A stretch of DNA of 64,000 nt from Xiphias gladius. Its lineage: Eukaryota > Chordata > Actinopteri > Istiophoriformes > Xiphiidae. The stretch covers positions 1,691,448-1,755,447 of the forward strand of contig NC_053403.1 of the NCBI RefSeq assembly GCF_016859285.1. Direction: 5' to 3'. Shown piece by piece: positions 6,301 to 64,000 of this stretch (within the stretch, counting starts at the first letter, position 1; every line of letters starts with the position of its first letter). The notes below the pieces were generated by a model. The model was not told the origin of the DNA and did no database searches. It worked only from the letters and a program-made list of their open reading frames with translations. The position numbers were made by a program, and so were the translations under genes.

Positions 6301-8483
6301 TGTCGAAGTGTCACGAAGCGATATTGGTTCTTGGTGCCTGATGTAGTGAAGGATCACCTCGGCCTGATTACTGATTATTGACCGCGGCAGTAATCGGCCA
6401 GAAGCAGAGTCAAACGTTTCTTTCCTTGCGGACCAGTGGCTCCGGCGGATTCGGCCTGACGCCGTAAAGCGCGATCAGTGCGTCGACTTCCGTCAAACCC
6501 CCCTTTCTCCTCTATCGCTTCCTGAAAAATGTATAAATAAGCCAGCGGATGCACAGCACGCTCCACAGAGAACCGGCCGTCCTGCAACACGTAGACGCCT
6601 CGGTTTAATGGCTTTTTGTCCCCGTGTTCAGCCGAGCGTCTGCGGCGGGGAAGGCGCTACTTTCCCGATCGAGAGCTGCGGAACACAGCGCGGACTTGCG
6701 CCGGTGTCCCGCTCTAACGCTGGGTCTGTTTTCAATCAGGGTTCGGCTAAACTGGAGAAGGCAGAAATCCTCCAGATGACTGTGGACCACCTGAAGATGC
6801 TGCAGGCCACGGGAGGGAAAGGTAAACACCACACACAGCAACTCCTGCCTGATAAGGGACACAGCGTGCCCCCCCCCCAAAAAAAAATAAATCTTTCTTT
6901 TGTACCTCGGAGCATCAGACAACAAAGCCTGCAGACGTATCCCGCACACAGCACAGAGTTTTTGCAGCGTCAGGTCTCCGACAGTTCTACCGCGCAGCGG
7001 CCTCGGGTACCCACTCACGGGCTGGTTCTCCTTTTCGCTCCTCGCCTTCAGCTCACTGGTCGCGACTCAAGAAAAAATCGCCGGGCAGCAACAGCCAAGT
7101 TCTGTATTTGGCTTCACTGACACAAAGCGCGCGGGACGTTGAGAGCCCCGGGACAGAGACTGACCGGGCTGAGGTCCCAGTCCCGACCAGGTGGCGGCTT
7201 CGGTCCACTTCTGCATCGTTGCTGTAGGAACAGAGCGTGGATGAGGACAGCCACCCGTCACCGGGCGCTTTACCGGTTGGCGGGCGCCACCTGGTGATAC
7301 TGTCCGATTCTCCCGCTTCGCGCCACCTCTCTTCGTTCTTCCCACCTCGTTTTCTGTTCTTCTTCCGGCAGCGACACGATGAGCTGAAAAGCTGAATTTC
7401 ATGGTGTCGGTTATCGATTATTTTTTTTTTTTTTTCGTCAGATAGTGACAGACAGTGGCATGAGCCTTGGTCTCAGTGGTTACTTCCTGTCACGCAGGCA
7501 CAGAGCGAACAGGCCCCCCCCCCCCACACACACACTCCGGGTCGTAGCCTGAGACCAGTTGTCTCTGACTGTCTCCTGGTTCAGGCTGGAGACCTGCCTT
7601 GTTTTTGTAGATTAGCTTTTAATTCTGTCCTACTACTTCGCTGACCTGTTGCGTTTTTTACACATTTCCTCTCATGTTTGCAGAGTCGCGCTCCAAAAGC
7701 TCATCATATTGTTTTCTTCGGCCCGTGGTTACGGAAACGACGTCTCTCCCTGTGTCTGTAGGTTATTTCGACGCCCACGCTCTGGCCCTGGACTTCCTGT
7801 CTCTGGGCTTCAGGGAGTGTGTGACGGAGGTCTCCCGCTACCTGAGCGCCGTGGAGGGCCTGGACTCCAGCGACCCCCTGCGCTCCCGCCTCCTCTCCCA
7901 CCTCACGTCCTGCGCCTCGCAACGCGACGCCGCCGCCCTGACAGCCGCCTCCCATTCTCCGCATCCCCACCACCAGCAGCCCCTCCCTTTACCCCACCCC
8001 TTCCACCCTCAGCACTGGGCCGCTGCAGCCACTGCCGTGGCCACTGCGGCTGCGTTTCGACAACTACCAGCCGCCGCCGCGCCGTACGGACTGAGCGGGC
8101 TTCCTGTTTCTCCAGATGCTGGAGGAGGTGGAGCCCCCCAAAGGCTGGCCGAGCTATCGCAGCGCAGCGTGGCGTCCTCCTATTCCTCCCACGCAGACTT
8201 CACCTCCTCCTCCTCCTCCTCCTCCTCCTCCTCCTCTTCCTCCTGTCTCGTGCTCCCCTGCGCCCCGGCCCCTCTCTCCGCCTCGCTCCTCTCCCTCTCG
8301 GCCTCGTTTCCCATCGCCCTCCCCGGTGCTTTCACCGTCCTCCCTCCCTCCTCCTTCACCTCCGCTGCCACCACCAGTCCTCCCATGTCCTCCTCCTCCT
8401 CCTCCTCCTCCTCCTCGCAGACAGCTCACAGCAGCAGCAGTAAACCCTACAGACCGTGGGGGACCGAGGTCGGAGCTTTCTGA
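3391..8483 (+). CDS. hey2: Hairy/enhancer-of-split related with YRPW motif 2 (Hey2), bHLH-Orange repressor
   Basis: Coding exons are 3391-3476, 5451-5529, 5641-5724, 6740-6821 and 7762-8483. All have GT-AG borders and joining phases, giving 1053 nt and 350 aa (human HEY2 is 337). The N-terminus MKRPCED and the ETIDVGSEN stretch are typical of Hey2. The bHLH spans about residues 48-103: basic region ARKKRRG with glycine where Hes proteins have proline, then [19 protein letters not shown], then helix 2 ending [13 protein letters not shown]. The Orange domain (about 115-155) contains [17 protein letters not shown] and [11 protein letters not shown]. The C-terminus [13 protein letters not shown] carries the YRPW motif and terminal peptide. 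The protein is a Notch effector that binds E-box/N-box DNA in the nucleus and represses transcription; in zebrafish the orthologue (gridlock) acts in artery and heart development. Two poly-serine tracts (nt about 8204-8240 and 8390-8416) interrupt the C-terminal half. HEY1 and HEYL fit less well. Confidence 0.96.
8204..8240. repeat. (TCC)n coding microsatellite in hey2
   Basis: A TCC/TCT run in the last hey2 exon encodes about 14 consecutive serines. A second run at 8390-8416 encodes about 9 more. Both lie between the Orange domain and the YRPW motif and are absent from human HEY2. Confidence 0.9.
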
Positions 8484-11492: not shown

Positions 11493-11605
<113 letters not shown>

Positions 11606-20020: not shown

Positions 20021-20028
20021 AATGGGGG

Positions 20029-20172
20029 TTCAGTTTGGGGTTCAGTTTGGGGTTCAGTTTGGGGTTCAGTTTGGGGTTCAGTTTGGGGTTCAGTTTGGGG
20101 TTCAGTTTGGGGTTCAGTTTGGGGTTCAGTTTGGGGTTCAGTTTGGGGTTCAGTTTGGGGTTCAGTTTGGGG
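20029..20172. repeat. 12-bp minisatellite, 12 perfect copies
   Basis: The unit TTCAGTTTGGGG is repeated twelve times without a single mismatch (144 bp), preceded by GGGGG. The G4 runs recur every 12 bases with 8-base loops. All open frames through it are simple translations of the repeat (GFSL or VQFG units) and are not genes. Confidence 0.97.
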
Positions 20173-21081
20173 TTCCACGCGCGGACTGGAGGGGCCGGGT
20201 TAGTGGACGTCCCGCTCTACCTCCTGCGCCACAGCCGCCAGGTACGTCTGCCAATCATTCAAAATGCCCGACTGACTGTTCAGCGTCTAAACTGTCAGAA
20301 AATGGTGGAAGGCGGCCCGTCATTATTCCCTGAAGCCCAGTTTTCTGGTGCCCGGAGAAGTGATGAAACTTCTTCTGTATGTATAGTGGAGGTCACCAGG
20401 GGCCCAACAACAGATTTTCTTTTGGCTCCAGGGGCCCCTCAGGAGGCGGACGCTGATATTGGTGTCTGAGAGTCAACCAACGTCCGGTTTATACACGAGC
20501 ACATTTTTGATGAAGATCCTAAAATTCGGTCACTTAAAGAGTTGCCACCGAAATGTTAAGCGCTTATGTTTGACAGTTGAGAAATAAACTTTCCAGCTAC
20601 TTATAGGCCAGAATGTAGGCTGATAGTAAAATATCCACCACAGGCAGGTACTGGCCAAAGTACTGTTCCGGTTTATGTGTCAGTGTAGCTCTAATGCTAA
20701 ATGGTTGGACTCTGCAAACTCTAGGAAAGCAAGAAAGAAAATGTGAAAATAATCGGTTCAATTTCCCTTTTATGAAAAGTACAAAAACTTAATAATTTTT
20801 AAATACTGATGAAAAAAATGGAGCAGAGCAATTCATATTTGTAATTCTAAAGTTTGATCAACGGTCCAATAGTTTTCTTAAGAAAATGTTGATAAAAAAA
20901 CTAAAGCAAACAAGTTGTAGCCAAATTAACTTCAAAGTAGAAAAGAAAAAAGAAAAAAAGAAACTCTTTTCAATAAAAGGAGTTGAGTCAGACAGGAACT
21001 CATGTCTGTGCAGACTCACTTCAATGAATCCTCCAACGATTGAGCAAAATAAGAAGATAATTATTGCACTTCAGCACAAAG

Positions 21082-21485: not shown

Positions 21486-37234
<15,749 letters not shown>

Positions 37235-39069: not shown

Positions 39070-40297
39070 GTATGTACACGCCGAGGTGGCCCTCATATTA
39101 CGTAAACATGTTGTGGTTGAGCTTGTGCTCTGTGCACACTAATGCTGGATGCGTTGCACGACCGGCCAGTGTTAGCAACACGGCAGCTCGTTATCACGGC
39201 TAGCCGGCATTTTGAAAAACGGGCCCGCTCTGATTGACGGCCCGTTATACAGATGTGGTGTAAATGACTCACGTGGGTCGAATTTAGAGAGAGTACGATG
39301 CCTTGCAAGGATTTAGTCCTGAGATTTGTCTTGGTAAGGTTAGCCCCATTCAGCCTGCATCTCCACGCGTGTGGTGAAGACTGAGGCCTGCAGTCCACCG
39401 AGCCAGGGACGCTAGCTGACATTAGCTAACAGAGGCGTGGTGGATATGTATGGAAACAAGCTGGCTACTGACACGAGATTATTATTATTTACTACTTTCT
39501 GGAGTTGAGGGATAGCATGAACTATGCTCTTTTTATCTAAGAGCACCAGACGTTAAATATGGCCAATCGCGGCATCCAAGTGTCTCAGTTTCACCCTTGC
39601 GACCACTGGGATAACGTTACCGTGTGTGAACGGCGTCCAGTCTTGAACGATGGCGCCAAACCGCACACCTTACTTGTTTTTCCAGTTTCGCTTGTAACTT
39701 ACACCATGGCTCGATTGAATTCGTTGTTGTCGGGCCCCCACCGACCCTCATTGTACATTAGATCTGATCATTCCTCCCGGCAACCAGAGACCAACCGGGG
39801 CTCTAAAGCTGAGATGGTTAGTTGAACAATGCCCGGTATTCTCCGGTGTGAATATTTTCTACTTTCCCAGTTTTTCTGTAATGGTGAACTGGACATATTT
39901 TTTTTTGTTTTTGACACCTGGTCAGATACAACAAGCAATTTGAATTGAATCAATTCATCATTAAAGAAAACAATTGTCGGCGTTTCCTTAATGGAATAAT
40001 GCCAACTTGCCTGCGGTTTTCAGTGTGGTAACTACTTGATGCACTAAACAAAATAAACTAAAACAGTTGAGGTCTTAAAATTTATAGTTTCACATAAGGT
40101 CACTCTACAAGACCAGGGTGACAAGATGTGGATTTATGACTCAAAATAGTTGATATTTCAGTGGTGCAAATCTATGATTGATGATACCATGTAGACCCAA
40201 ATGCAAACTGTTGCTCAGTTGGTGATCCATGCCTTGAACTACAGTGATGATGTTGGTAATCCTGCTCTTAATCTCATCTGCACAGATGTCTGGAGAC

Positions 40298-43200
40298 ATG
40301 GCCACAGATCACGTAAACGGAAATGGTACAGAGGAACCAATGGACACTACAGCAGCGGTGACCCACTCAGAACACTTCCAGGCTTTACTGGAAGCTGGTT
40401 TACCTCAGAAAGTTGCAGAGAAGCTAGATGAACTTTACGTAGCAGGTAAGCTGAAGTTTCATCTCAGGTTGTGTTCTGCTGTTGTCTCCTGCCTTTACTT
40501 GCTCTGAGGTAAATGCTTTTCATATAAATGTTGGACACCACCACACTTTTGAAACACAGCTCTTGTCAGAGATGTTTTCCAGAGGTACTTTTGTATTGTA
40601 GGGTCACAGAGGTTTTTTACTCCCAGCGCAGGTGCCATGTCTATCTGCCTTTACGTACTCTTTAAAGGATGAGGCTATTCTATAGTGGTATCATTGCCAA
40701 CAAATCCCATGAAAGACCAAAACCATGAATGACTTGATCTTACTAACAGGTATGTATCTAAAGGGAGTACCCTATGTATTTAAAGCTTGATGTATCTGCA
40801 GTGACCACTTGTTTTCAAAGCGATGATCCAAGTTTAATACTAAATTATTAAGCTTTTTTAAAAACTGAAACCATGTATTTGTGACCTCCGTACTAAACCT
40901 TTATGTCCCCAGTAGAAACAATTGGGGTTGGGGCTACCACAGACATGGTAGAGAGGTCAGAAAGTAGTGCGAGATTTTGGTTTTGGTCTTCTCATGAAAT
41001 TTGTCGCAAAAAGATGGACATGCCTGGTGACTTTCTTTTTTTGATATTGATTGCTTAAAGCAATGGTAGCCCAGGAAATGAAACGGCAGTCATTCATCCA
41101 CTTCCTCTGAAGTATAACCACCTAATAACTGTAAATGATGCCTAGTTTAAAGTTGTTACACTTATCATTTGAGCAGCAAGATGATTGACAGAGCTGGTAG
41201 ACTGTAAGAAAAAGAGAATTCCTCAAACCCCTGATTTTGGTGATCATCCTCTTTTCTACATTGTCACAGACTAAACAAGTTATCCAGCATTTAAACTTCT
41301 CTTTAGATTAAATCATGCAAATGCAAATTTCTTTTCCAATATCAGGAAAATATTTTCTGTTTCTTTGTATAGCACCCTCAAATATACCTTCTTTGTTGCA
41401 AATCAATGAGTTGCTCTGGTCCCAGTCTAAGTATTGTCATGCTACACAGTGTAGACACTGGATTGAATGAGTAAAACGATGGCTGTAGCCATAAAGGGTT
41501 TAAGGAAGATAGATTGAAGCCAGCAGGTACTATGGCATATGCACGAAAAAAATCAAAGCAGCTATATAACTGCAGTAGGTGAAACAGCCAAAGAAGCCAC
41601 AAGGATGTTACATAGGCACGGTTAACATGATTGTTAACAGAAAGTTTTTTTTTTGGGCTTTGCAGGATCTTCATGTCTTGAAATTTAGTTTTAATAGCAT
41701 CTGTGTTTAATGTTTGAGTAACACTGCCCCTTTGTTGTTAATTTCGAAAGTATCAGTTGTACCAGTTGGTATCTGTTGCATGTTTGTAGAGATTGTGTTG
41801 AAACTTGGCACTCGATGGGACAGTAAATGGCTAGAAGACATAATAATGACACATTGACAATCAGGGCATTGTCCCTTCAGCTAATATTTTCTTTTGTTAA
41901 TACCAGTACAGATCAATTATAACTAAGCCTCTATTGTCCAACTGATTCATAGCTGCGCAAATAATACCCCCCGTTTCTTAGTGTTAACCTGCTCAGATAT
42001 CATGTAATTATTATTATTATTTTTTTTAAACACCATATTCACAGTTCCTTTTTGTTGTATTTCTCAGGCCTGGTAGCACATAGTGACCTAGACGAAAGGG
42101 CTATTGAAGCTTTGAAAGAATTCAATGAGGAGGGAGCCCTGCAAGTGCTGGTTCAGTTCAAAGAGAGTGATCTGTCACATGTGCAAGTAAGTTCCGAACA
42201 CGCTACTTTTTAGGTGTGGTTTGTCACTCTGAAAGACAGTGGGCTCTTGGTTTAAAAACTGCAGTTGAGCGGGTCCTTTTGCCAACGTACAGTATACAAT
42301 TAAACTGAGTACACCCCTGTTCATTATCACTAAAATATTAAATGATTCAAAATTGTATCTTAAAATAATTTTGATTTTTAGGTGAAGTGTAGGGTATGTG
42401 CTCGTGTGTATAATGAAAAACAAACAGGTTAGACTACATTGAAAATACAGGCATCAAAGTCAAACCTCAATACAACAAGAGTGAGTGCACTTCTGATTTC
42501 CAGTTAGGGTTAATTGTATGAACAAAGTCATAAAATAACCTGTAAACACCCCAGATTCTTCACTTTTTGCCTGTCTAATGCAAAATAGCTCCACATGGTA
42601 AGGGACTGCCTGAACAAGAAAGAAACCAGATTGTGAAACTCCACAAAGATGAAGAGGGTACAAATGAATCAGTGTGCTACCGAACATAAGATGAAACCTT
42701 GACCGAAATCTGAAACTGAAAGATTAAACTTTGCCGAAGAACATGAAAAGAAGCCTGACAAATGTTGGCAGCACGTTTTGTGGTCAGGAGAAACCAAAAT
42801 AGATTTGTTTGGATTAGATGGGGTCCAGCCTGTTTGGTGTGGACCTGGCCAGGACTACCACAGTGACTGCACAGTGCTGCCTGTGAAACATGGAGGTGGG
42901 AGCTTGCTGATATGGTGCTGCATGAGTGCAAGAGGTCTAGGAGAGATGACTTTTATGGATGGCACTATGAACGCAAGCTTGTTTACCCAAATACTGTCTG
43001 AAACGATGTCTCCCAGCCTCAGGAGTCTTGGCAGGAGAGGAATTTTCCAACAGGACAATGATCCCAAACACTTCAAAAATCACACAAGAGTTTGTAAATA
43101 AGGGAAAAAAAGTGAAAACGACGACCTGGCCACGTGTGTCCCCTGACTTGAATCCAATAGAACATCTCTGGAGTAATTTCAAGTGGAGCATAGAGCAACA

Positions 43201-46200
43201 AAACCCGTCCAGCAAAGAACAGCTGAAAAGACTCACCTATGAAGAACGGCAGAACATCTCTCCACTGATTTGTGCTAGACTGACAGGATCGAATATATCA
43301 TCAGAAATAAAAGGCCAAAATTACAAAATCTTAAAAAGTGAAAGTATGGAATCTCAATAATGAAGGGTCTATCGACTTTTGTTGCAGTTGGTTCTTTTAT
43401 ATGGAGCTTTTATTATAGTTTAATGGAATATTTTTGTTTTTTAAATTTAATTGACTTTGTTGTTCTTGGGCTGTGGCTAGGAACACATTAAATCGTATTA
43501 AAGGGACAGGATTTCTGATTACTTTGTATTTTTGTGATACTGACCAGGGGTGTACTCGGTTCAGTTGTGTACTGTATGTGTTCTAGTGTTGCCTTTCTCT
43601 TTGCTGTGTGTGGGGTTTTTTTTTTTTCTTCTTCTCCCCAGTAGAGGAAGGTAAATTATGTGTTTGTGACAGTTGTTCTCTCTTCCAGAACAAAAGTGCC
43701 TTTCTCTGTGGGGTAATGAAGACTTACAGGCAGAGGGAGAAACAAGGGACTAAAGTTTCAGATTCTACTAAAGGACCAGACGAGGCTAAAATCAAAGAAC
43801 TCCTGGACAGAACCAACTACACGCTTGATGTAACAACAGGACAGCGAAAGTATGGTGGCCCCCCACCTGAGTCGGTGTACTCAGGTGCCCAACCCACGGT
43901 TGGAACAGAGGTACGGTTTGTGATGTTGTGTTAAGAGTAAATCTAGTTGTTAGGCAGGGAAGGAAACCAAACCAGTGCTTCCCGCAAATATGAATTTTAC
44001 TCATTTGCTGCTATTTTACAGATTTTAGCCAGACTGAGCTCTGGGACGTTATCCAAAAAATATTTTACATCTTTCATCTTCAAATGCGAGAATATTTTTG
44101 ATTGGCCGATAAACAGAAAATAATGATTATGGAGTTTGAAGTCAACATAACCAAAGTAACGCACATCGTATCTTGACTTTGACATGTTCCCTCTGGACAA
44201 TTGCACCTTGCCTTGATTCCTATAAGTCTTTAAAAACTTTTTCCCAATATGGAAGGACAAGTATCCTTTGATTCATCATCTGAGCTTGGTTAAAAATGAA
44301 CAGCTGTCAGCAATACTTATATTTCAGCGTGAAGTTGGTTTGTGGTTGAAATCTAAAAGACGCCACACAAGATTTCATATTGGTCTGAGACATTGAATGT
44401 CTTATTTCTATCGTCTTAGTTTTTGTTTTTACGTCAGTTTTCACTGTTTCATTTTATAGGAAGAGGAAATGGGAGTCTGTAAGTGGGCTGTGTGCATCTG
44501 TAAACATTTTTTCTTTTTCTCCTAGATATTTGTCGGGAAGATTCCCCGTGACTTGTTTGAAGACGAGCTGGTTCCTCTCTTTGAGAAGGCCGGGTCTATC
44601 TGGGATCTCAGGCTAATGATGGACCCCCTTAGTGGCTTGAACAGGGGCTACGCCTTCGTCACATTCTGTACTAAAGAAGCGGCTCAGGAGGCGGTGAAGC
44701 TGGTACGTTTTGTCAGGAGTTCACCGTTCAGCAGAATGGGGAAATTCCAGTTGGAACAAGAATTGAGTCAGGACAGTAGTTTTTGTTCAGCAGTCAATTA
44801 ACTGCACAAAAATGTCCACATAATAGAGGTTTGGAATGGGGCATGGAAAGATTGTAGACTGAGATTCTCAAAGTTAGTCAGTTGAACAGTTGTATGTGCT
44901 TGATGAGATTAAATTTTTTTTTTTATTATTACATTTTTAAAAAAATTATTTAATTCATTAATAATAATAATATATATTTTTTTTACAGTGTAATAATCAT
45001 GAGATTCGCCCTGGCAAGCACATTGGGGTGTGTATATCTGTCGCCAACAACAGGCTATTTGTTGGCTCCATTCCCAAGAGTAAAACAAAGGAGCAGATTG
45101 TTGAAGAGTTTGCTAAAGTCACAGGTAAAAATTCCTGATGAATCTGTTTTCATGTAACTGCTTTGTAATGCCCTGCCGCAGTTTTCAAATTCAGTTGACG
45201 CGTTGTTTTACTTACTGTAATCTAAAGCACTTTACTGCGTCGTCTCAGAATCTTTTTATTTTTCCGTCTAATTAAAGAGGGCCTCAGTGACGTCATACTG
45301 TACCATCAACCCGATGACAAAAAGAAGAACCGAGGCTTCTGCTTCCTGGAGTATGAAGACCATAAAACGGCTGCTCAGGCCCGCCGCCGGCTAATGAGCG
45401 GGAAGGTGAAGGTCTGGGGCAACGTGGTGACAGTGGAGTGGGCTGATCCCATCGAAGACCCTGACCCAGAGGTCATGGCCAAGGTGAGCTTCAGAAATTG
45501 AGTTATGCCATAGAAAACAGCAGCAATTGAAAGAAGAAATGATAACTTCATAGTCTTGAAATGTCACTTGGAACTACTTGGCAAACAGCGATTAAGGTAA
45601 AGATAGCACCAGAGTCTTAATATGTTAGAGAGATAATGGGCTGGAAAATGTTAGTGCATCCCTGGAGTACTGGCATTTCTTAGTCCTCAACCTCAAAATC
45701 AATTTCTGGTCCACATAATGAACCTGTGGGAGGGAGGGACTGACATGAGGTTTGACCATTCCTCTGTCCGTTTCACAGGTGAAGGTTTTATTTGTGAGGA
45801 ACCTCGCAAATGGTGTCACAGAGGAGATCCTGGAGAAGTCCTTCAGTCAGTTTGGAAAACTGGAGCGAGTTAAGAAGCTCAAAGACTATGCTTTCATTCA
45901 CTTTGAAGAGAGGGACGGTGCAGTGAAGGTACGGATTTTCTGTGGTTCTGTAATGTAGTTTTTACACATTGTTATTAAAACTTGGGTTCTGTTTCCAATT
46001 TTTAATTTGTACCAGTTTTATTGAGCAGTTATCACACATTTCACTTACTGAACCTAAACTAAATACTAAGTTGTGACTGTTGAAGTCAAAAGGCACATGC
46101 AGAAATGTCGTTGCTTGCTTTTCTCAGGCATTGGAAGAAATGAACGGTAAGGAGCTGGAGGGAGAGCCAATTGAGATTGTTTTTGCCAAGCCACCAGATC

Positions 46201-46970
46201 AGAAACGGAAGGAGCGCAAAGCCCAGAGACAAGCAGCCAAAACACAAATGTAAGAAAGCACTTGACACGTCCTCTGATTGAATTACAGGCCAATCCAGAA
46301 GTTACCCTCGTGATTGTGTTGCCTATTTTCTTATTCCTTACCTTCTTTTGCTCCCATCAGGTACGATGACTATTACTACTACCCTCCCCCTCCCCACATG
46401 CCTCCGCCTGTCAGAGGTCGGGGCAGAGGCGGCAACCGGGGCGGCTACGCCTATCCCCCCGACTACTATGGTTACGAGGACTATTATGACTATTACGGCT
46501 ATGACTATCACAACTACCGCGGTGGCTACGATGACCCCTACTACGGCTACGACGACTTCCAGGCCCCAAGCCGGGGGCGCGGTGGCAGCAGGGGGTCCCG
46601 GGGAGGAGCCTCACCAGCCAGGGGACGTGGCGGCGCTGGCGCACCCAGGGGCAGGGCCAACTTCTCCCAGCGTGGCGGGCCAGGACCGGGCCGCGGCGGG
46701 CGAGGAGCAAGAGGAGGCGTGCAGCCGAGAGGGCGAGGAGGGGTACGTGGTGCGCGGGGTGGCCGCGGTGGAAATGTAGGAGGAAAGCGCAAAGCTGATG
46801 GGTACAACCAGCCAGATTCCAAGCGTCGCCAGACCAATAATCAGAACTGGGGCTCTCAACCCATTGCTCAGCAACCGCTCCAAGGTGGTGATCATTCTGG
46901 TAACTATTCTGGTTACAAATCTGACAACCAGGAATTTTATCAGGATTCTTTTGGGCAACAGTGGAAGTAA
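40298..46970 (+). CDS. syncrip: Heterogeneous nuclear ribonucleoprotein Q (SYNCRIP)
   Basis: Coding exons are 40286-40445 (start codon used 40298), 42068-42186, 43689-43910, 44526-44702, 44989-45124, 45278-45483, 45779-45928, 46128-46249 and 46361-46970. They give 1890 nt and 629 aa (human 623). The N-terminus [18 protein letters not shown] identifies SYNCRIP rather than HNRNPR. The acidic N-terminal RNA-recognition unit covers about residues 20-105. RRM1 starts at IFVGKIP (164), RRM2 at LFVGSIP (about 244) and RRM3 at VLFVRNL (about 339), each with the aromatic RNP1 strand (YAFVTF, GFCFLEY, YAFIHF). The C-terminus has YYG/DYY repeats, an RGG-rich region and a bipartite nuclear signal, [15 protein letters not shown] (about 569-583). 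The protein binds mRNA in nucleus and cytoplasm and acts in splicing, stability and translational control. ATGs at 40286 and at the end of exon 1 are in frame, so a start four or five residues longer is possible. Intron 42187-43688 contains a Tc1-type element. Confidence 0.96.
42290..43574 (+). mobile_element. decayed Tc1/mariner-type DNA transposon
   Basis: A 1285-bp element bounded by TA target-site duplications (42288-42289 and 43575-43576). The terminal inverted repeats of about 33 bp (left from 42290, right ending 43574) differ at about 5 positions, and both contain GAGTACACCCCTG. Inside are two overlapping frames (about 42733-43101 and 43028-43360) with Tc1 transposase motifs: [21 protein letters not shown] and [11 protein letters not shown]. 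The first catalytic aspartate (WSDETK in the family) is glycine here, a frameshift separates the two halves, and the N-terminal DNA-binding part is missing. It is therefore an inactive relic, in the sense orientation within a syncrip intron. Confidence 0.88.
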
Positions 46971-47571
46971 ACCAGTAGGGCTTTGATAACAAAATACGTG
47001 TTTATTGTTTTTGTTTTTGTCTTTTTATTTAGAGACTTGATCTGATTGGCCCTCAATCCCATACGGTTGCCTGCATTTTTTCCTCAAAATTGGTGACATC
47101 TGGCAAGATATCTTTTTGTACATATTTTAATAATCCGCTTGGACTCAAACAGTAGTCACACTCCCACCTGTTTCTGGCGAACTGGTTTTCCTTTTTTTTT
47201 TTTTTTTTTTTCTTTTGTTTGTTTTCTTTCTTTTTTTTCTTTTTTTTTTAATTAAGATGGTCGTTTAAAAGATTTTCCATAACAAAGTTTGAAAAAATTT
47301 TTAGATGCAAATATGTGCTCGAGCTGTCTATTTGGCTATAGCTTTATGTATGTTTTTAGAAATTCTGGTTTCCATGTTTTAAGTAGCTAACAGCAACAAA
47401 GCATATGTCTCCTAAACATGTATTTAAAACAAATGAAAATACAATTTGTATTGTCACAAAGTAATGCGTGTCTTGTTATTGAAAAGAAGAAGAAAAAAAA
47501 AAAAAGGACCGTCGTAGTCCTATTTTTTGGCTTTACATTTTGGCTTGTATTCTTTGCTGTTTGTCTGCTTT

Positions 47572-47577
47572 AATAAA
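47572..47577 (+). terminator. candidate proximal syncrip poly(A) signal
   Basis: AATAAA 602 bp after the stop codon, followed by a GT-containing region. Confidence 0.5.
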
Positions 47578-48696
47578 CATACACGCACACGTGTACAAAA
47601 CTTCAAATTGTGTTGCAAATTCATGTTTCGGCAAATTCTCTCTTCAAATTGCCTTCAAATTTAAGGCTCCTTGTGGAAGAAAATGGATTAAAGGTTTGCC
47701 AATGTTGGCCACATGCTACAGTGTCACCTTGCATGCCATCAAATTCCAAATCACCTACTTCTATAGTCGGCATCTCTCAAGTGCTCTGTATGTGTAGTGA
47801 CATACTTCATCCTTATGAGTTCCTCTCATGTCCAAAAACATAAATGTCTCTCAAATTGGTGTCCCAAATCAATGCAGCATCAAGAGTAAGCCCCGCCCCC
47901 GACAAGTCTGTCGTACTGGTCCCTTTCGATACTGACGGGGGAGATAAAAGCACAATTTGATTTATTAATTTCAAAGTGAAGCTTTTCCTTGTCCCAGAAG
48001 GATCTACCTAGCTGTTGAAGGCCTGGATACTAATCTTGCATGTTTATCTGGAGGTTTGATATTGTGCTACTGTGGTAGATAACTGCCGTGCATGACTCGC
48101 TTGTAGTGTTTTTGTTCAGTTTGCTTTTATAGACATAATGGCTGCTCTTAACCCCCACCCCCTCCCCTTCCCTCTGCCCGTCTAAGCGTGTCCACGTTTC
48201 ACCTGCTGCACCTCAAACGGTTTCAGTTTTATTATCCGAACCGGGCCGATTCTCTGCTTGTCGTCCTCTTTAAGGCATTGACATGTGCATGTTGCGTCAG
48301 AGGGCGTGCAAGTATGTGAGAATGCTTTGTCTTCTAATGTATGTAAATTCATGTTTTACTCGTTACACAATTCGCCCTCTACAGTTATACTGAATATGAG
48401 TGTGTGAGCGTGAGGGACACAGAACAGTAGATGTGTGTGTAGATGTAATACGATCCCGTTTTCCATTCTCTAATTGCTTCCTTTTGTTACCTGACTAGCA
48501 GGGAAAAGGGGTCGAGGCCGGTCCTGATGTGTCGCTATGAAGACTGACCAGTGTATGGCGTCACACACTGCAGGCTGCCAGTGGATGGAATGGTAAGGTC
48601 ATCTGACTCTGTGGTCCAGTGGTATTCCAGCCTTTTTAAGGAGCAGATCTCCTGAAACTGCCACGTTCGAAGATAATCTGAAGAGCAAAACTTGAG

Positions 48697-48701
<5 letters not shown>

Positions 48702-48731
<30 letters not shown>
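48702..48731. repeat. poly(T) tract
   Basis: About 30 consecutive T residues in the presumed syncrip 3' UTR; length is likely to be unreliable in the assembly. Confidence 0.95.
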
Positions 48732-48735
<4 letters not shown>

Positions 48736-49899
48736 CATTGACTTTTAAGTTAATAAGACCCAGCCCCAAATATGCCATTTGAGACCTTCTGAGTATTAGT
48801 GCATGATGGACATCCTTCTGGAAAAGTTGTTGCACTTTTTTCTTTTTTTTTTTTTTAAGTTTGGAGTGGTTTAGTGGAACTTGATGCTTTTTTTTTTTTG
48901 TTTTGTTTTTTTTGTTTTTTGTTTGAGTTCTTAAACTACATCTTTATGATGGACTAGACATGATGACCTACGATCATCAGGTAGTGTTGAGGTGTGATCA
49001 CCCGTCGCTGAAGGTCGGGCATTCCAGGAAAATGGTTAAAGCCACCGAGGGTTCGTTAACTACCTCAGTTTCGAGGACTCGTCTGCTCTGTTTCACTTTG
49101 TACTTGAGGAAACTGAGGCAGGGATCGACCCACCCCTCCACCCTCCACCAAAAAAAAAAAAAAAAAAAAGAATCCCACCCCTCCACCTCAGAGTTATGCA
49201 CAGGCAACAGCAACAGAGCACTTAATGAATTTTAGTTCTCAGTTGAGACTTGATGTAGGCTGCAGCTACTGTGGACATGTGGCTGGTCCTCCTGAGATGA
49301 GCCTGAACAAGCCTTGCTGTCTTTATAAATGAACTAAGTGATGATGTAGTTGACGGACAGAAATTGTTTTATAGCTTTTATTTTTCTTTGTAAGATCTTA
49401 AACGCCTGGAAACCGCAGTCATCCCTTGTCTTCCACGTAGGAAAAGTTGTCTTAATTTTTGTTTTTGTTGCAAAGTGATGTCTCAGGCAATCTGCTCTGC
49501 ACTAACATCTGTGTTTGTCCACAACATGAATGACCACTGACATCCAGTGACGCTGCCTTTTTATTTAGAATCTCTGAGCAGGTCTGGAAGGAAATGAATT
49601 CATTCCATGTCTTGAAAAGTTTTTGGAATCGAACTAAATGTAGCATGGAAAAAGTTTTCATTGCAAAAACATGACTACACATTTCACATCGTACGTCACT
49701 GTAGACTGATTATCATGCTATGTATGTGATCGTGACACGTTCTCCTGTAAACTGGTGTCGATTCATGTCTTGTCACTATCAGTGTACACATTATAGTGGA
49801 GATCAAGCTGTTAAGAATTTAAAGGAGCAGATCCATCCTAAAACGGTGAAACTTTGGGGATGTACCTTGCATTTTTGGGCACATTTTGTTTTATGTGGA

Positions 49900-50319
49900 G
49901 TCTGAAGTGCTTTACAGCTTGTTAGATGCAGCCCACCCGCTCAGTTTTTCCGTGGTGCTTTTTAGCTAATAATTAATAAAATTAATTGTTAGCAGTATAA
50001 AATGTAGAGGATCAGTCTGGTGGTGTTCTGTGTTTTTTGTTGTTGTCAAAAAATCCCACGAAAAGACCAAAACCAGCACAGTGTGTTAGTCTGCGTGACT
50101 TCCCTGCCGTGTCTGTGACCCTTTGCCCCAAACCCTTTGGAAAACACCTCACAAATATATAGTTTCATTGAAAAAAGCTTCAGTAATTTTCCTCAAACTG
50201 CTGCTCGCTGTAGTTTCTTATCAAACAAACAGGAGGGAACCGTGCATCTGTTGGGGACTACTTTCAGCGGCGGATTAATCCACATCTGCTGAAGTAGTGA
50301 GTATTTGTGGCAGCAGGAC

Positions 50320-50411
<92 letters not shown>

Positions 50412-50560
50412 TGGTGATGATGAAGGAACATGTCACCCAGAGCAGCAGTGTGATTCACTGATGTGTTTTTTTTATAGTTTTTGGAAACAGTGGAGCTCTG
50501 AGGCTCAGAGGAATCAGGACACATCAGGCTGTGATACACAGACAATAACAGGATGACACT
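49900..50560 (+). repeat. dispersed repeat with internal (GT)n, copy C
   Basis: This is the longest copy. It has ATCCCACGAAAAGACCAAAA near 50055, TTGGGGACTACTTTCAGCGG near 50251, GGATTAATCCACAT, a GCAGCAGGACG linker, (GT)n from 50321 to about 50409, then GAGCTCTGAGGCTCAGAGGA. The last part matches the inverted copy A near 9040 (CTCTGAGCCTCAGAGCTC). Confidence 0.65.
50321..50409. repeat. (GT)n microsatellite, about 43 units
   Basis: A pure GT array within the dispersed repeat copy C. Confidence 0.97.
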
Positions 50561-54333: not shown

Positions 54334-54388
<55 letters not shown>

Positions 54389-57300
54389 GGTCCGTCAGAT
54401 TATCAGTTGAACACCGGGGGGGGTCATGTGATGTCTGGAGGATTGTGACCCGCCGCCTGCCGCTGTGAACCTGATCAGGGCAGAGCCGTTTATCTGCGTG
54501 TGTTGTCACCCGGCGGCTCCTGTGTCCTACCGGGACTCTCGGGTTCAGGACGCCCGGTCTGCGCGCAGCTCCTTAAACCTGATTCATCAGCAGCAATGAT
54601 GCGAGTTCATTCCTCCGTCGAATCCACGGACCGGTCGTGAGCCAGCGGGGCCCCGGGCCCCACGACCCGCCCCCACTGTCCTTGTTTTTCATCTCTGACA
54701 CAGTAACATAGTGGTGACACCTCTGCCTGACTTATTCTGGGAGATCTGTTATTTATATGACTTAAATTAAAAACGTAAATTCAATTTCAGATGCTAAATC
54801 CACTTCTCTAACTCATCAAATAAAAACGACGGGGTGTTTTATCAGCTGAAAGTAAAGTTAAAATAATCTAGACAGGCTCTTTCTTTTCCTTTCTCTCTGT
54901 CTTATGTTTAGGACGTGTCATCTTCGTACGTAGCACTTACCCTGCATGTCAGGGCAAAAAATGTTAATCACTAATGAGATTTATGACGATAACAATGAAT
55001 GGCTCTAGTTGCAGTGAACACAAGGGGGAGGCCCCGATCAAATGCTGATCAGTTTTCCTTTGTATTTTTATTTGAGCGATGGTTTTAGTTCTTTTACGCG
55101 GGTTTTAACTCCATATCATAATCTGCCTCCAGGTATATCCACATCCTGATGGTCTTCTGGTCTTTCCTGGCTGGTGTCATCACTTTCTATTGCTGCCTTG
55201 GACCAGAGTCTCTTCTCCCAAATATCCTCTTCACCATAAAGCCAAGAAACAAAGTAAGTCAGACATCTGACAAATTTAGAGCCAGTAGAGAAAGTATCTC
55301 AGTCTCTCCGGCCCGTGTCCGTGTTTTATGGTTGAGTCCCCGCGTTGCTTACCCAAGAGATGTTTTCAGTGATGAAGTGGCCACTCGGGAAATATCCGGT
55401 GGTAATTTACGGCGTGGACTGATAAAGGAAAGAGGTTATTTATGTTTTTCCACCGACAGCTGCAGGAGCAGGAGTTGTTTCCTCTGGGCCACAGCTGTGC
55501 CGTGTGTGGGAAGGTCAAGTGCAAACGTCACCGGTATGTTAACAACATCTCTGAGCAGATAATACGATTGGCCGACTTCTCCGTGGTCATTTGACAGCTG
55601 TAGTTACTAGTTACATGGCTGCGGGAGATTTTACATACAAAACTAATGACCTGCTTCTAAAATATAATGATCCTGTAATAGGTTCAACTATCTGGCACTA
55701 AATGAAGTTCTTCAGATCGGCTCTAGCTCGACCAGCTTTAACAGTAAAATGTTCCTTACGCATTATTGAAATAATGATTCAATAATCTATTACTATAGAC
55801 AACTCTCAGGGGCCTTTTTTTGCTGCATAGTGATGTTATCTGATATTACCTCTGCACTTTTACATAAGTAAGATTTTGGGACTTTCAGTCTTAATGGAAT
55901 ATTTTTTTAAATCGTTTTTTTTTGATACTTTTTATGAAAGACTCTACATTTATTCTTTTTTTAAATCTTACAGTTTAATGGTACGATTCCTTTGTTAAAA
56001 TGATTTTGTAGCACAATTTAACTTAACTCATGTTATAAAGTAAAAAGTTAAAAAGTAAAACTAAAAAAGCTTTAGTACACAGTGGGGAAAAAAAAGAGAG
56101 AAACCTCGAGAGATGCAGTTCAGCGTTAAGTTTCCCTTCTCAGACCAACAGGTGTGCACTAGGAACAAGACAGTTACAAAAAACAGAGCAACACGAGGCG
56201 TTTATAAAACAACGATGGGATTATGACAAATCTTAATTTGACCTCTGGAGCAGGATAGGACTGTAGAGACTTTTAATAAATAACCTCCAGTCAGCCATGG
56301 ACAGCAGCTAGCCGCTGTGTGGATTTTACCTGGAGTGGATTTTCACTCTGGTGTCGCTTATGATCGCTGCTTTCTTAGAGTGTGGTGAGCTGAGATGCAT
56401 TCAAGGAGCAGTCACTGATAATATGCACCAATATTTTGTTCTTTGCAGGCCGACGCTGCTCCTTGAAAATTATCAGCCATGGCTAGACCTGAAGGTTCAT
56501 TCAAAAGTGGACGCTTCAGTGGCAGAGGTACCTCGCTGGACGCTGAAATGTCAACGTTTTTTTTCCTGAATTTAGTTTTTAATTATTTGGAAAAAATGTG
56601 GCTGTTATTCTGACAAAACCATTGAAAAACGTAGACATTTTACTTACGAAATTACATTTTGATTGTAGTAATTATTTGTCTCTGTAAAACTGGAACTATC
56701 GTCTGAACGTATGTAAATGTCATCAGTTAAATTCACAGACTTGTTTATTTCCGACCTGTGTTCACTGTCCTCATCCTGCAGGTGTTCGAGTTGGTTCTCG
56801 AGAACTTTGTGTACCCCTGGTACAGGTAGGAAGAGATCCCAAAGTGCTTCATTGTCTTATGAAAGTGAAACCTGTGCGGAAGTTGTTTTAAACTTCTTCT
56901 TCTGGTTTTCAGGGACATCACAGAAGACGAGGCATGTGTAGACGAACTGAGGATGACCTTTCGCTTCTTCGCATCAGTCCTCGTCCGCCGAGCTCACAAG
57001 GTGATGCCCAAACATTCTTCAGCCCAAATACGGCAGTTAGAAGATGTTTAGCATGTTGTTGCCTTGTAATGTTCTTGCAGCAATCCTGGTTTTTCATGTT
57101 GGTTTTTCAATGGCTGATTCACACAGAAGGTCAGAAAATTCAAAAGCAGGTTGTTGCATCGCTGGAACACAATTTGTTGGGTCTTCTTGTACTTCCGGTT
57201 GTTGTTGAATTGTATTTCATTGTTCTCTCACCTCTCCTGCACACAGCCCAGGCAGTTCCTGGTCCTCTCATATCCAGTAATGCTATCATAAAAACCCCTG

Positions 57301-60300
57301 GAGGTTCTACAGTCTCAGCATTTTTATCTTGATGGGGCATACATTCCCATCATACTAATAGGCAGCTTTAGGCTTAAAAAGACTGGAGACAGACGCATGT
57401 TCATTTTGTACGTTTTTACACTACAGCATTGTCTTTTAATGATAAAAAAAATGAACAGAGTTTACCATTTTCCACTGATCTTTGTTAATTTTTGATGATT
57501 ATTTAGGCATCTCACAGGGTAACTGTGAAGCCTTCTCATATCTTGTCGTATTTTTTCTCTTTTTTGCGCTTTTCGCTAATTGTGGACAACTTCTTGGCAG
57601 GTTGATATCCCGTCTGTGTTTGCAGACAAAGTGATGAAAGCTGCAATGAAGCACATTGAAATTATTGCAAAAGCTCGAGGAAAAGGTATGCATATGTACC
57701 GACAGGTAATCATAACAATCTTGACTGCAGAATAAAATTTGACATGATTTATTCACTCATTTATTTATGTCAATCATTCTTTCACTGATTTATGTTAATT
57801 TCTTTTGTTAGTAATTTTAACATCACATTTGACTGCCAACAATTTAGCTAGAAATCTGGAAATGGTGAGAGTTTTCCCTCCACTAAACTAGAACAGGAAC
57901 ATTAATCCTCGCTTTACTACAAAAAATGTCACATGCCACCACAAATACCACTGGTGATGTAAATTAGTGTCATATGTTATGGTTTGGCTCCAGATAACAG
58001 AGTTAAATTGATTAGTGAAAATGTGTTGCAAACTCATGTTTGTGGTCTGATTTTATTTGTCATGGTCATACTTTGTTACCTCCACCAAGGACGTTATGTT
58101 TTCACCCGGGTCTGTCTGCCTGTTTGTTTATTTGTCGGCAGGGTAAAGCAAAAAGTACCAAACCAGTTTGCACTAAACTTGGTGGAGGGATGGGGCATGG
58201 GCCAGGAAAGAACCCGTCAAACTTTGGTTTGGTGTATGTTGTTTGAGGTTGTCCTTGGCAGAGGTCTGTCCTCTACTGAGTGCCCTTCAAGTGTGTTTTG
58301 GTTTGTTTACACTAGGATACATATAGGCATGCTTGTGGTATCAAAAATCCAAACATCCCATTTGGGCCAATGTCGTGGTCAGACCAGTCGTAAAACATGA
58401 CAAACGTGTGTAAATGGTGGCAGGTAGGTTAGTATGTTCTTTAAGCCCAGTTATCTGAGGCTGGGTTTGGTGAGTTCAGGGTTAAACGGCAATGTCCGCT
58501 CTGTTCTAAAGTTATATTGTGTGTGTTTGTCTGCAGTGAAGAATGCGGAGGGTTTACAGCAGGCAGCTCTGGACGAATACGGTGCTGATCTACACATCGC
58601 TCTGCGCGGCCGGAAAGACGAGCTGTTCTACCTGAGGAAGCTGACTGAGATGCTGTTTCCCTACGTCATGCCTCCCAAAGCAACAGACTGCAGGTAGGTA
58701 GACCCAAACTGGCCTAACCAACTCCCTTCCCAGCCGGACTTACAGCAGTTCATGGTGAATTTGGGAAAACCAGTCACCTTAAATGTGAAAGTCGAATCCA
58801 GGAGTTACACTTTTTCTTGGTTCAGGTCTCTGGCTCTGCTGCTGCGGGAGGTGATGGCTGGATCTGTCATCCTACCAACCATGGACTTCATGGCCGACCC
58901 TGTAAGTAGAACAGGACTGTGTATGTCTACAGTATAACGAACGAGCAGGTCATATTGTTTGAATGCTGTAAATGTTGAGATTAGTAGACGTTATTTCTCT
59001 TCACCAAATGACCGAGCATTTGAGACAGAATCCAGGCAGGTGGAGAAACAGCTTTACCTAATCTGGCCATGGAAGTGGTGATGTTACAACAGTAGTAATA
59101 CCTGCTGAGAGCCTCACTGTGGAGAAGAAATAATACAGCAGGGTGTTACACAGCGAATTAACATAAAAATAACTTGAGGTGAATTATTTAGACAGATTCT
59201 CCAGTCGGGTTTTTGAAAGCAAACTTGGACTGAAAGTTTTACTGCATTTTAATGCAGCTTAATCTGGATCTTAAGAGAAAATGCTTTTTCTCTTTGTTTT
59301 TCAGGACACTGTGAACCTCATGGTGCTCATATTTGTTGATGACACTCCAGTAAGTGAGATTGTTGCCTGCTGCCTTATGTCTGAATTAGTGAGAGGTTCA
59401 TATATTGTGTATCCAATCAGAAAAAGAGACCCAACCTCCTAAAACCCACATTTGTTAAAAAAAACTGCTTTGCTACACTTAAGGAGATGATACAATACCT
59501 GACAAAAAATCAAATGGTTGCTGCACAGCCCACAGGTACATTCAGATAAATCAATTGAAACCTGATTGCGGTCAGGTTGATCAACTAATCACTTGGGTCC
59601 TTTAAATGTCTTCTGTATCTTCAGCCGGAACCAGCCACAGAGCCTCCTTCTTCCCTGGTTCCATTTTTACAGAAATATGCCGATGTCAGCAACAAAAAGC
59701 CGTCTGTGAGTATCTCCCTCGCCAGAGAGTAAGAGTCACCACAGCAATTGATTTCTCTCAGATTTCTGCGAGAAATCAGAAAAATTGAACTAGACATTTA
59801 TTTTTTTGCTTGTACCGCACCTTGCTATCATTTAGTCCTACCAGCAACTTTACATTCTGCGTATCTATGTATTGTCTTTGATGTTTTTATTGGAGTAGTT
59901 TTGAAACTACTTCTGTAATCTGGATAACTAAACCTCTCCCTCTGGCCGCACAGGTGCTGAAGTTGGAGCTGAGGGAGATCAGGGATCAGCAGGATCTCCT
60001 TTTTCGTTTTATGAACTTCCTGAAGCAGGAAGGAGCCGTGCATGTGTTGCAGTTCTGCCTCGCTGTGGGTAAGAAAACCCATCGTACACGCTGCCCTTAA
60101 TTTTTTATAATAATAGCTCGGCCGATTATCTTCGAGTTTCAAACAACTAGCCTCGAAAGCCTGTAGCAAGCTAAGTTAAGTGGTTAGATAGCCGGCTGGC
60201 CCTCCAACTTCAACATGAATGAAAAATGTAGTTTACTACCATTTTCAGTTCATCTGTGCATCCGTCCACTTTCCAAGCCCCGTAGCCTGTTGACGGTTAG

Positions 60301-63300
60301 GTGGGGGGTAATCAGGGATCTGTATGCAGACTGCTTAAGGAATCGTTTCCATATAGTTACTGGAAACATATCTGACGTGTGTTTCTTCGCACTGATCAAA
60401 AATCCTGAGGGTAATTCTGGAATGGAAAGGTGATAAGTCATGTTTTCAGAAATGTGACAAGGTATCTAAGCTCAGTAGCAAATATTTGAGCCTGTAACAT
60501 AAATATGTCAGAGCACTCAGGATTTCCACGTCATTCGGACTATATTACACTTCACGTCGTTTCCTTCAGAGGAGTTCAACGATAAGATCCTGAGTCCGGA
60601 GCTGAATGACTCCGAGCTGCGGCGTTTACATGGTGAGGTGCTGCACATCTATGAGACCTACTGCCTGGACGAAAGCATCGACAAGATCAGCTTTGACCCG
60701 TTCATCGTGGAGGAGATAAGAAACAGTAAGACACCACATGATTCATTACAGTGCTGGGCTTTCCTCTTTTAGGCTTTAAAGTAGTGCAGCTGTTGAGTCA
60801 CAACTTCATCGCTCCTACACTGCTTCAAAAACATACAACCTAAAAAACTAAAAAAGGGACCTGTAGATAAACTGTCCAGTGGTTTAAACTCTCACCTGGC
60901 TGCAGTGATGTACAGGTGTGCTAAAGGACAGTGTGACATCCCTGTCGGGTGTGGTTCCAGGTGAAACAGACATGAAACTTTCAGCCACAGAGGAAAGCGA
61001 TACATTGCTTTTAGCCTGGTGTTAACTTACTCTTTAAACGGTTTAGAATGCACTGCTATTTGTGTACAATCTTGTGTAGTACGTTCCTGTTTGTCTCCAC
61101 CGTAAACTTTCTAACCCTCCACACAGAAACTCAGCGGGAAAGCAGAGATCAGTTTAATCTCACTCTGTCTTCCCTCTCAGTTGCTAAAGGTCCAAACATC
61201 CATACACGCTGTGGTGAAGCTGCAGACCATGCTGCTGCCTGTTTGAGGCTTATGAACCGTCCTGTCTCTGCTGGAGAGTCTCTTCACCCGATGTTCTGTC
61301 ACAGTGATGAAGTAAGACCTTTTTTACAAATGAGCTAGAGCAGAAATGAAGGTACCAAGTGACTGTGTATGTTGTGTTTGAATGTTGTGAGAGTTAAGTA
61401 TAGTTTGATCACCAAATGACCGAGCATTTGAGACAGAATCCAGGCAGGTGGAGAAACAGCTTTACCTAATCTGGCCATGGAAGTGGTGATGTTACAACAG
61501 TAGTAATACCTGCTGAGAGCCTCACTGTGGAGAAGAAATAATACAGCAGGGTGTTACACAGCGAATTAACATAAAAATAACTTGAAATAATTGAGGTGAA
61601 TTTCCAGACAGATTCTCCAGTCGGGTTTTTGAAAGCAAACTTGGACTGAAAGTTTTACTGCATTTTAATGCAGCTTAATCTGGATCTTAAGAGAAAATGC
61701 TTTTTCTCTTTGTTTTTCAGGACACTGTGAACCTCATGGTGCTCATATTTGTTGATGACACTCCAGTAAGTGAGACTGCTGCCTTATGTCTGAATTAGTG
61801 AGAGGTTCATATATTGTGTATCCAATCAGAAAAAGAGACCCAACCTCCTAAAACCCACATTTGTTAAAAAAAACTGCTTTGCTACACTTAAGGAGATGAT
61901 ACAATACCTGACAAAAAATCAAATGGTTGCTGCACAGCCTACAGGTACATTCAGATAAATCAATTGAAACCTGATTGCGGTCAGGTTGATCAACTAATCA
62001 CTTGGGTCCTTTAAATGTCTTCTGTATCTTCAGCCGGAACCAGCCACAGAGCCTCCGTCTTCCCTGGTTCCATTTTTACAGAAATATGCCGATGTCAGCA
62101 ACAAAAAGCCGTCTGTGAGTATCTCCCTCGCCAGAGAGTAAGAGTCACCACAGCAATTGATTTCTCTCAGATTTCTGGGAGAAATCAGAAAAATTGAACT
62201 AGACATTTATTTTTTTGCTTGTACCGCACTTTGCTATCATTTAGTCCTACCAGCAACTGTACATTCTGCGTATCTATGTATTGTCTTTGATGTTTTTATT
62301 GGAGTAGTTTTGAAACTACTTCTGTAATCTGGATAACTAAACCTCTCCCTCTGGTCGCACAGGTGCTGAAGTTGGAGCTGAGGGAGATCAGGGATCAGCA
62401 GGATCTCCTCTTTCGTTTTATGAACTTCCTGAAGCAGGAAGGAGCCGTGCATGTGTTGCAGTTCTGCCTCGCTGTGGGTAAGAAAACCCATCGTACACGC
62501 TGCACACTTAATTTTTTATAATAGCTCGGTAGCTTCGATTATCTTCGAGTTTCAAACAACTAGCCTCGAAAGCCTGTAGCAAGCTAAGTTAAGTGGTTAG
62601 ATAGCCGGCTGGCCCTCCAACTTCAACATGAATGAAAAATGTAGTTTACTACCATTTTCAGTTAATCTGTGCATCCGTCCACTTTCCAAGCCCCGTAGCC
62701 TGTTGACAGTTAGGTGGGGGGTAATCAGGGATCTGTATGCAGACTGCTTAAGGAATCATATTCTGGAAACCATATACTGACATATCTGTCGTGTTTCTTC
62801 GCACTGATCAAAAATCCTGAGGGTAATTCTGGAATGGAAAGGTGATAAGTCGTGTTTTCAGAAATGTGACAAGGTATCTAAGCTCAGTAGCAAATATTTG
62901 AGCCTGTAACATAAATATGTCAGAGCACTCAGGATTTCCACGTCATTCGGACTATATTACACTTCACGTCGTTTCCTTCAGAGGAGTTCAACGATAAGAT
63001 CCTGAGTCCGGAGCTGAATGACTCCGAGCTGCGGCGTTTACATGGTGAGGTGCTGCACATCTATGAGACCTACTGCCTGGACGAAAGCATCGACAAGATC
63101 AGCTTTGACCCGTTCATCGTGGAGGAGATAAGAAACAGTAAGACACCACATGATTCATTACAGTGCTGGGCTTTCCTCTTTTAGGCTTTAAAGTAGTGCA
63201 GCTGTTGAGTCACAACTTCATCGCTCCTACACTGCTTCAAAAACATACAACCTAAAAAACTAAAAAAGGGACCTGTAGATAAACTGTCCAGTGGTTTAAA

Positions 63301-63717
63301 CTCTCACCTGGCTGCAGTGATGTACAGGTGTGCTAAAGGACAGTGTGACATCCCTGTCGGGTGTGGTTCCAGGTGAAACAGACATGAAACTTTCAGCCAC
63401 AGAGGAAAGCGATACATTGCTTTTAGCCTGGTGTTAACTTACTCTTTAAACGGTTTAGAATGCACTGCTATTTGTGTACAATCTTGTGTAGTACGTTCCT
63501 GTTTGTCTCCACCGTAAACTTTCTAACCCTCCACACAGAAACTCAGCGGGAAAGCAGAGATCAGTTTAATCTCACTCTGTCTTCCCTCTCAGTTGCTAAA
63601 GGTCCATACACCGCTGTGGTGAAGCTGCAGACCATGCGCTGCCTGTTTGAGGCTTATGAACACGTCCTGTCTCTGCTGGAGAGAGTCTTCACCCCGATGT
63701 TCTGTCACAGTGATGAA
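54182..63717 (+). CDS. snx14: Sorting nexin 14, 5' part (continues beyond the window)
   Basis: Coding exons are 54182-54318, 55133-55253, 55460-55533, 56449-56527, 56782-56825, 56913-57000, 57601-57685, 58537-58693 and 58826-58901, then a five-exon block present twice. Copy 1 is 59305-59349, 59625-59705, 59954-60068, 60570-60725 and 61181-61311. Copy 2 is 61721-61765, 62034-62114, 62363-62477, 62982-63137 and 63593-63717. Phases join throughout. The start aligns with human SNX14; an in-frame ATG at 54137 is possible. Exons 1-2 encode two hydrophobic segments ([18 protein letters not shown] and [19 protein letters not shown]) that anchor the protein in the ER membrane. [14 protein letters not shown] and [13 protein letters not shown] follow, then the PXA domain (exons 4-10) and the RGS domain ([19 protein letters not shown] to MFCHSDE). 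The PX and C-terminal nexin domains lie outside. SNX14 links ER and lipid droplets and affects fatty-acid handling; loss causes cerebellar ataxia in humans. Confidence 0.93.
54336..54382. repeat. (GT)n microsatellite
   Basis: About 23 GT units starting 18 bp after the exon 1 donor of snx14. Confidence 0.93.
55590..55970 (+). repeat. teleost 'GTACTTTACT' interspersed repeat, copy 2
   Basis: A diverged copy in snx14 intron 3 with CAGCTGTAGTTACTAGTTAC, ATAATGATCCTGTAATAGG and CTTTTACATAAGTAAGATTT in the order seen in bub1 intron 2. Confidence 0.45.
58079..58290. repeat. dispersed vertebrate repeat in snx14 intron 7
   Basis: Begins CCTCCACCAAGGACGTTATG (58079), includes GTTTGTTTATTTGTCGGCAG and AACTTGGTGGAGGGATGGG, and ends CCTTGGCAGAGGTCTG (58253). 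The two ends form a short imperfect inverted repeat. This sequence pattern recurs in many vertebrate genomes. Class not assigned. Confidence 0.5.
58915..61360 (+). repeat. snx14 tandem duplication, copy 1
   Basis: The first copy of a unit of about 2.4 kb with five exons and their introns. From 59001 onward it aligns almost base for base with 61409 onward, with scattered substitutions and short indels in introns. In the first four exons the only differences I could find are two synonymous ones (CCT/CCG and CTT/CTC); the fifth exon differs strongly. The unit begins with GACTGTGTATG (58915-58925). Confidence 0.95.
61181..61311 (+). pseudogene. scrambled RGS exon in snx14 copy 1
   Basis: Compared with the intact exon at 63593-63717, this copy has an 8-base insertion near 61194, then single-base losses and gains further on, with a net +6. 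The splice sites and the ends (AKGP and MFCHSDE) are intact and the frame is open. About 35 residues between them are read out of frame, replacing the conserved [19 protein letters not shown] helix of the RGS domain. It is either a decayed exon or a patch of sequence error. Confidence 0.8.
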
Positions 63718-63779
63718 GTAAGACCTTGGCTTTTACAAATGAGCTAGAGCAGAAATGAAGGTACCAAGTGACCGTGTAT
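61361..63779 (+). repeat. snx14 tandem duplication, copy 2
   Basis: The second copy of the five-exon unit. It starts with GACTGTGTATG (61361-61371), followed by a shortened and diverged version of the sequence after 58925, then tracks copy 1 until GACCGTGTATT at 63769-63779, where unique intron sequence begins. All five exons are intact and match the human SNX14 reading. Confidence 0.95.
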
Positions 63780-63814
63780 TCAAAATATAGACTTGCAGTA
63801 TTTGTCTATATCGG

Positions 63815-64000
63815 TGTTGCAAAGTAAGAGAGCACGTTTTGCTTGTACTTGTATGAGGTACTTGTATTTTACTTCAATATTTCCATTTAATGCTCCTTTA
63901 TGATTCTACTTCACCACATTTCAACTGGAAATATTTTACTTTTAACCACACTGTACCAGCTACAAGTTAACTTCCAGATGAAGGTTTTTACAAACATGTT
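63815..64000 (+). repeat. teleost 'GTACTTTACT' interspersed repeat, copy 3 (cut by the window edge)
   Basis: GTACTTGTATTTTACTTCAA, TTTCCATTTAATGCTCCTTT and TTCTACTTCACCACATTTCA appear in the order typical of this family, immediately downstream of snx14 copy 2. Confidence 0.55.

Follow-up and report, generated by a model that had tools for sequence, protein, structure and literature searches.

Five repeated exons in an snx14 gene of Xiphias gladius probably reflect one stretch of DNA assembled twice

Five exons of one sorting nexin gene, together with their introns, are present twice, head to tail, in the 64,000-nt stretch of Xiphias gladius DNA analysed here (the window). The last exon of the first copy, directly beside the join, carries a cluster of frameshifting differences, a local feature absent from the preliminary description of this DNA. 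A novel protein with two RGS regions is improbable here, and judging from the error-like damage at the join the assembly probably contains a single stretch twice. False haplotype duplication had been named as the main alternative to such a protein; we now make it the leading reading because the damaged exon adjoins the seam.

The repeated block and its gene

We used positions 57001-64000 as a BLASTN query against the window, which paired 59001-61370 with 61409-63779 at 97.0% identity. Such identity over 2.4 kb rules out chance similarity. Gapped alignment of these two intervals gave 17 substitutions and 19 indels, 36 difference events in all. A longer local alignment, which includes the unit start, is 2445 columns long; 24 of these are mismatches and 70 contain gaps. 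The unit starts at 58915 with GACTGTGTATG, which recurs at the seam, 61361. The corresponding unit end is marked by GACCGTGTAT, beginning at 63770, and BLAST similarity stops at 63779. From these alignments we place copy 1 at 58915-61360 and copy 2 at 61361-63779, both on the forward strand. The seam zone (61191-61408) comprises a cluster of differences in copy 1, a short join at 61361-61371 that holds GACTGTGTATG, and about 37 bases after the join (to 61408) with poor similarity to the start of copy 1. No N lies between the copies or anywhere else in the window. When the window was compared with itself, the next-ranked match after the repeat was 115 columns long and the longest other match 180 columns, among the matches listed.

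We placed exons manually on the sequence, six upstream of the block and two sets of five within it (a-e), all on the forward strand. The upstream exons (56449-56527, 56782-56825, 56913-57000, 57601-57685, 58537-58693 and 58826-58901) keep an open frame. Those of copy 1 lie at 59305-59349, 59625-59705, 59954-60068 and 60570-60725 (a-d) and at 61181-61311 (e), and those of copy 2 at 61721-61765, 62034-62114, 62363-62477, 62982-63137 and 63593-63717. AG and GT splice sites flank all 16 placed exons, including all ten of the two copies. The joined coding lengths are 529 nt upstream, 528 nt in copy 1 (176 codons) and 522 nt in copy 2 (174 codons), and the three sets read one after another form a single open frame. 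The preliminary description had reported a tandem block in snx14 between 58915 and 63779, entered and left in phase 0, with an in-frame read-through that adds 176 codons. The head-to-tail BLASTN pairing confirms the block, the recurrence of GACTGTGTATG and the end of similarity at 63779 uphold its limits, and the hand-placed exons bear out both the phase and the read-through. The placed set starts at 56449, and further exons of the gene would lie 5′ of it; a hydrophobic open frame lies at 55122, upstream of the placed exons.

We take the gene to be snx14, and not snx13 or snx25, from its presumed likeness to the human protein and from a syncrip-like gene upstream, on the assumption that syncrip neighbours SNX14 in vertebrates. 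This upstream gene (42055-46970) contains a Pfam hnRNP_Q_AcD match at about 42055-42195, and its open frame at 46314-46970 is rich in RGG. Each of the three forward frames of 40001-50000 has RRM_1 matches, although in the third they are weak and no individual stretch passes. Beyond these Pfam matches, the name syncrip/hnRNP Q is our assumption. A DDE transposase fragment, presumably a Tc1-like remnant, lies at 42703-43228, where DDE_3 scores 27.9 bits, just under its cut-off of 28.6, and overlaps an open frame at 42703-43101. Farther upstream, a minus-strand open frame of 369 codons (24597-25706) includes a period-39 repeat at 24953-25094 that is read as repeated DVPMSP motifs, and a period-12 tandem repeat at 20025-20175, identical in the listed self-matches, adjoins a dinucleotide run. 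Further simple repeats are found at 993-1061, 11493-11605, 50321-50416 and 54336-54386. Open frames at 6368-8483 seem to resemble a HEY-type bHLH-Orange transcription factor.

A damaged exon beside the seam

The protein joined from the upstream exons and copy 2 matches PXA (4.9e-39) and then RGS (4.5e-09) in Pfam. The PXA match covers residues 18-184 of this protein; the upstream exons encode nearly the whole domain and its last 8 residues alone fall inside the block. The repeated end of the PXA domain that had been described is indeed carried by the block, but at these 8 final residues it is very short. The claim of two RGS regions likewise stands in part. Copy 2 matches the RGS profile over positions 3-112 of 117 (39.2 bits). 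Copy 1 also exceeds the Pfam cut-off (29.8 bits against 23.9), but its match covers positions 3-82 of 117 and is cut short there by a run of 31 out-of-frame residues towards the end of the copy. The window does not contain two complete RGS domains; of the two RGS regions in the assembled sequence, one is whole and the other truncated. Neither copy had a match among PDB sequences at E 0.001. For the 52-residue exon d, no relatives were confirmed in viral and prokaryotic collections, where 25 (viral_contigs) and 434 (genome_contigs) stretches matched its pattern, a result uninformative for animals.

The truncation originates in exon e of copy 1 (61181-61311). Relative to its counterpart in copy 2, this exon has two substitutions and five indel events, of which one involves 8 bases and four a single base; two of the four single-base indels shorten a C run. 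The two exons are identical at 120 of 134 DNA columns and at 21 of 50 protein columns, 12 of the latter in the flanking AKGP and PMFCHSDE. The out-of-frame stretch of copy 1 measures 31 residues and corresponds to 29 residues in copy 2. The length changes sum to +6, which restores the frame by the end of the exon, with no stop. The five indel events thus fall within 131 nt, while the other 1448 nt of placed coding sequence (529 upstream, 397 in exons a-d of copy 1 and 522 in copy 2) are open.

This concentration stands out against the rest of the repeat. The copies are identical over 60441-61190, 750 bases directly before the damage in exon e, and a gap of this length arose in 1 of 100,000 random placements of the differences. 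Six of the 19 indel events lie between 61181 and 61330, which has a probability of 0.00086 under random placement, the interval having been picked after the data were seen. Exons a-d differ by no indel and by two substitutions, T/G at 59648 in a Pro codon and T/C at 60001 in a Leu codon, both of them synonymous. Other clusters of differences are distant from the seam, at 59174-59189, 59360, 60095-60123 and 60345-60377, so that damage at the seam accounts for part of the differences between the copies and not for all of them.

Origin of the second copy

We consider it likely that this is a false exon gain, in which one snx14 locus, probably represented by its two alleles, was placed twice by the assembly with a poor consensus at the seam. 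In this scenario a pair of contigs that overlap in this part of the gene, and that most likely stem from both alleles of a heterozygous animal, would have been left unmerged, placed end to end and closed over an imperfect match of about 10 bases at 61361. A poor consensus at the contig ends would account for the small frameshifting indels in exon e of copy 1, with copy 2 clean. The true locus would then be a single block encoding an ordinary PXA-RGS sorting nexin. The damage in exon e looks like poor consensus at a contig end because it lies beside the join, with the other exons of copy 1 clean. A difference in consensus quality between the copies may be read from the sequence only: exon e is damaged beside the seam in copy 1, and open and RGS-like in copy 2. 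Rhie et al. (2021, PMC8081667) name frameshift-causing short indels as the most frequent consensus error in their long-read contigs before polishing, and describe homotype false duplications as often sitting at contig boundaries.

The differences outside the seam look allelic. We treated 10 of the 17 substitutions as isolated and excluded by hand the other seven, which fall within clusters of indels or at the seam; six of the ten isolated ones are transitions, and both substitutions in exons a-d are synonymous. The substitution rate, 17 in 2370 bases or about 0.7%, is inside the range of heterozygosity given for the vertebrates of Rhie et al. (PMC8081667), 0.1-1.6%, and we count it in favour of the allelic reading.

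A real and recent tandem duplication, fixed or polymorphic, is a considerably less probable explanation. It would have been mediated by microhomology at GACYGTGTAT, with exon e of copy 1 either decaying or badly polished. The unit limits coincide with a match of 9 out of 10 bases at the seam (P 0.0005 for a random breakpoint), a mark of microhomology-mediated duplication, as such a case would predict; closing a gap on overlapping ends would give the same match. No N separates the copies, although a gap is a listed hallmark of false duplication (PMC9516828, PMC8081667); the gap may have been closed without N. The AG and GT sites kept at all ten exons, the open read-through and a copy 1 that still exceeds the Pfam RGS cut-off also fit a real duplication, and the regained frame without a stop and the difference clusters away from the seam count against an assembly error as well. 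Against a real duplication speaks the distribution of the indels: decay should spread them, yet exons a-d and the 750 bases preceding the damage have none, and exon e has five. If both RGS regions were working, exon e should have been kept, yet 31 of its residues are out of frame.

Within this reading, it is very improbable that the locus truly has two copies, that the damage in exon e is a local consensus error only and that two whole RGS regions are encoded. The indels do resemble long-read consensus errors, and short reads derived from copy 1 could align preferentially to copy 2, which is clean, leaving copy 1 uncorrected. Such a locus, however, would have to combine a consensus error with a real duplication, the latter having no independent support. 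Mutually exclusive exons are ruled out, since five exons are repeated together with their introns and the last exon of copy 1 is damaged.

Published cases and consequences

The false exon gain that we favour resembles the cases within a gene described by Ko et al. (2022, PMC9516828) in that the exons of one gene are repeated inside it at high identity, here five near-identical exons in each copy (97.0%). It differs from them in that no assembly gap (N) lies between the copies in the window, and in being suspected from the sequence alone and not from depth or k-mers. False duplications from adjacent overlapping contigs, as presented by Kelley and Salzberg (2010, PMC2864568), have a median identity of 98.1% and are mostly shorter than 2 kb. 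Like these, the present copies are adjacent and 97% identical, with the end of one block repeated as the start of the next; unlike most of them, the block extends over 2.4 kb, a length that counts against false duplication.

According to a review of the family (PMC7956473), the SNX-PXA-RGS-PXC sorting nexins include SNX13, SNX14 and SNX25. The gene in the window shares with them a PXA followed by an RGS in one open frame, and the assembly as written departs from them by a second, incomplete RGS region. The PX and PXC of this family would fall beyond 64000, past the end of the window, and the hydrophobic open frame at 55122 may be a candidate for its N-terminal transmembrane helices. Among the open-licence PMC papers searched, we found no report of a sorting nexin with two RGS domains and none of an exon duplication in snx14.

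There is a small chance that the five-exon, in-frame duplication of snx14 is genuine, perhaps polymorphic, and adds an RGS-derived segment whose end is frameshifted or misread in the assembly. Its read-through product would then carry two RGS regions, the first broken (or misread) and the second whole, and splicing from copy 1 to the next exon of copy 2 would yield a near-normal protein. A domain would then have been duplicated in frame, and recently, in a gene that has been linked to the human cerebellar ataxia SCAR20 (PMC7956473; title of PMC11035801). If the false exon gain that we prefer is correct, frameshifting indels limited to the exon on the side of the join, with the other exons of that copy clean, would offer a cheap sign of such gains from sequence. 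Taken at face value, the repeat would introduce a new sorting nexin architecture into gene models.
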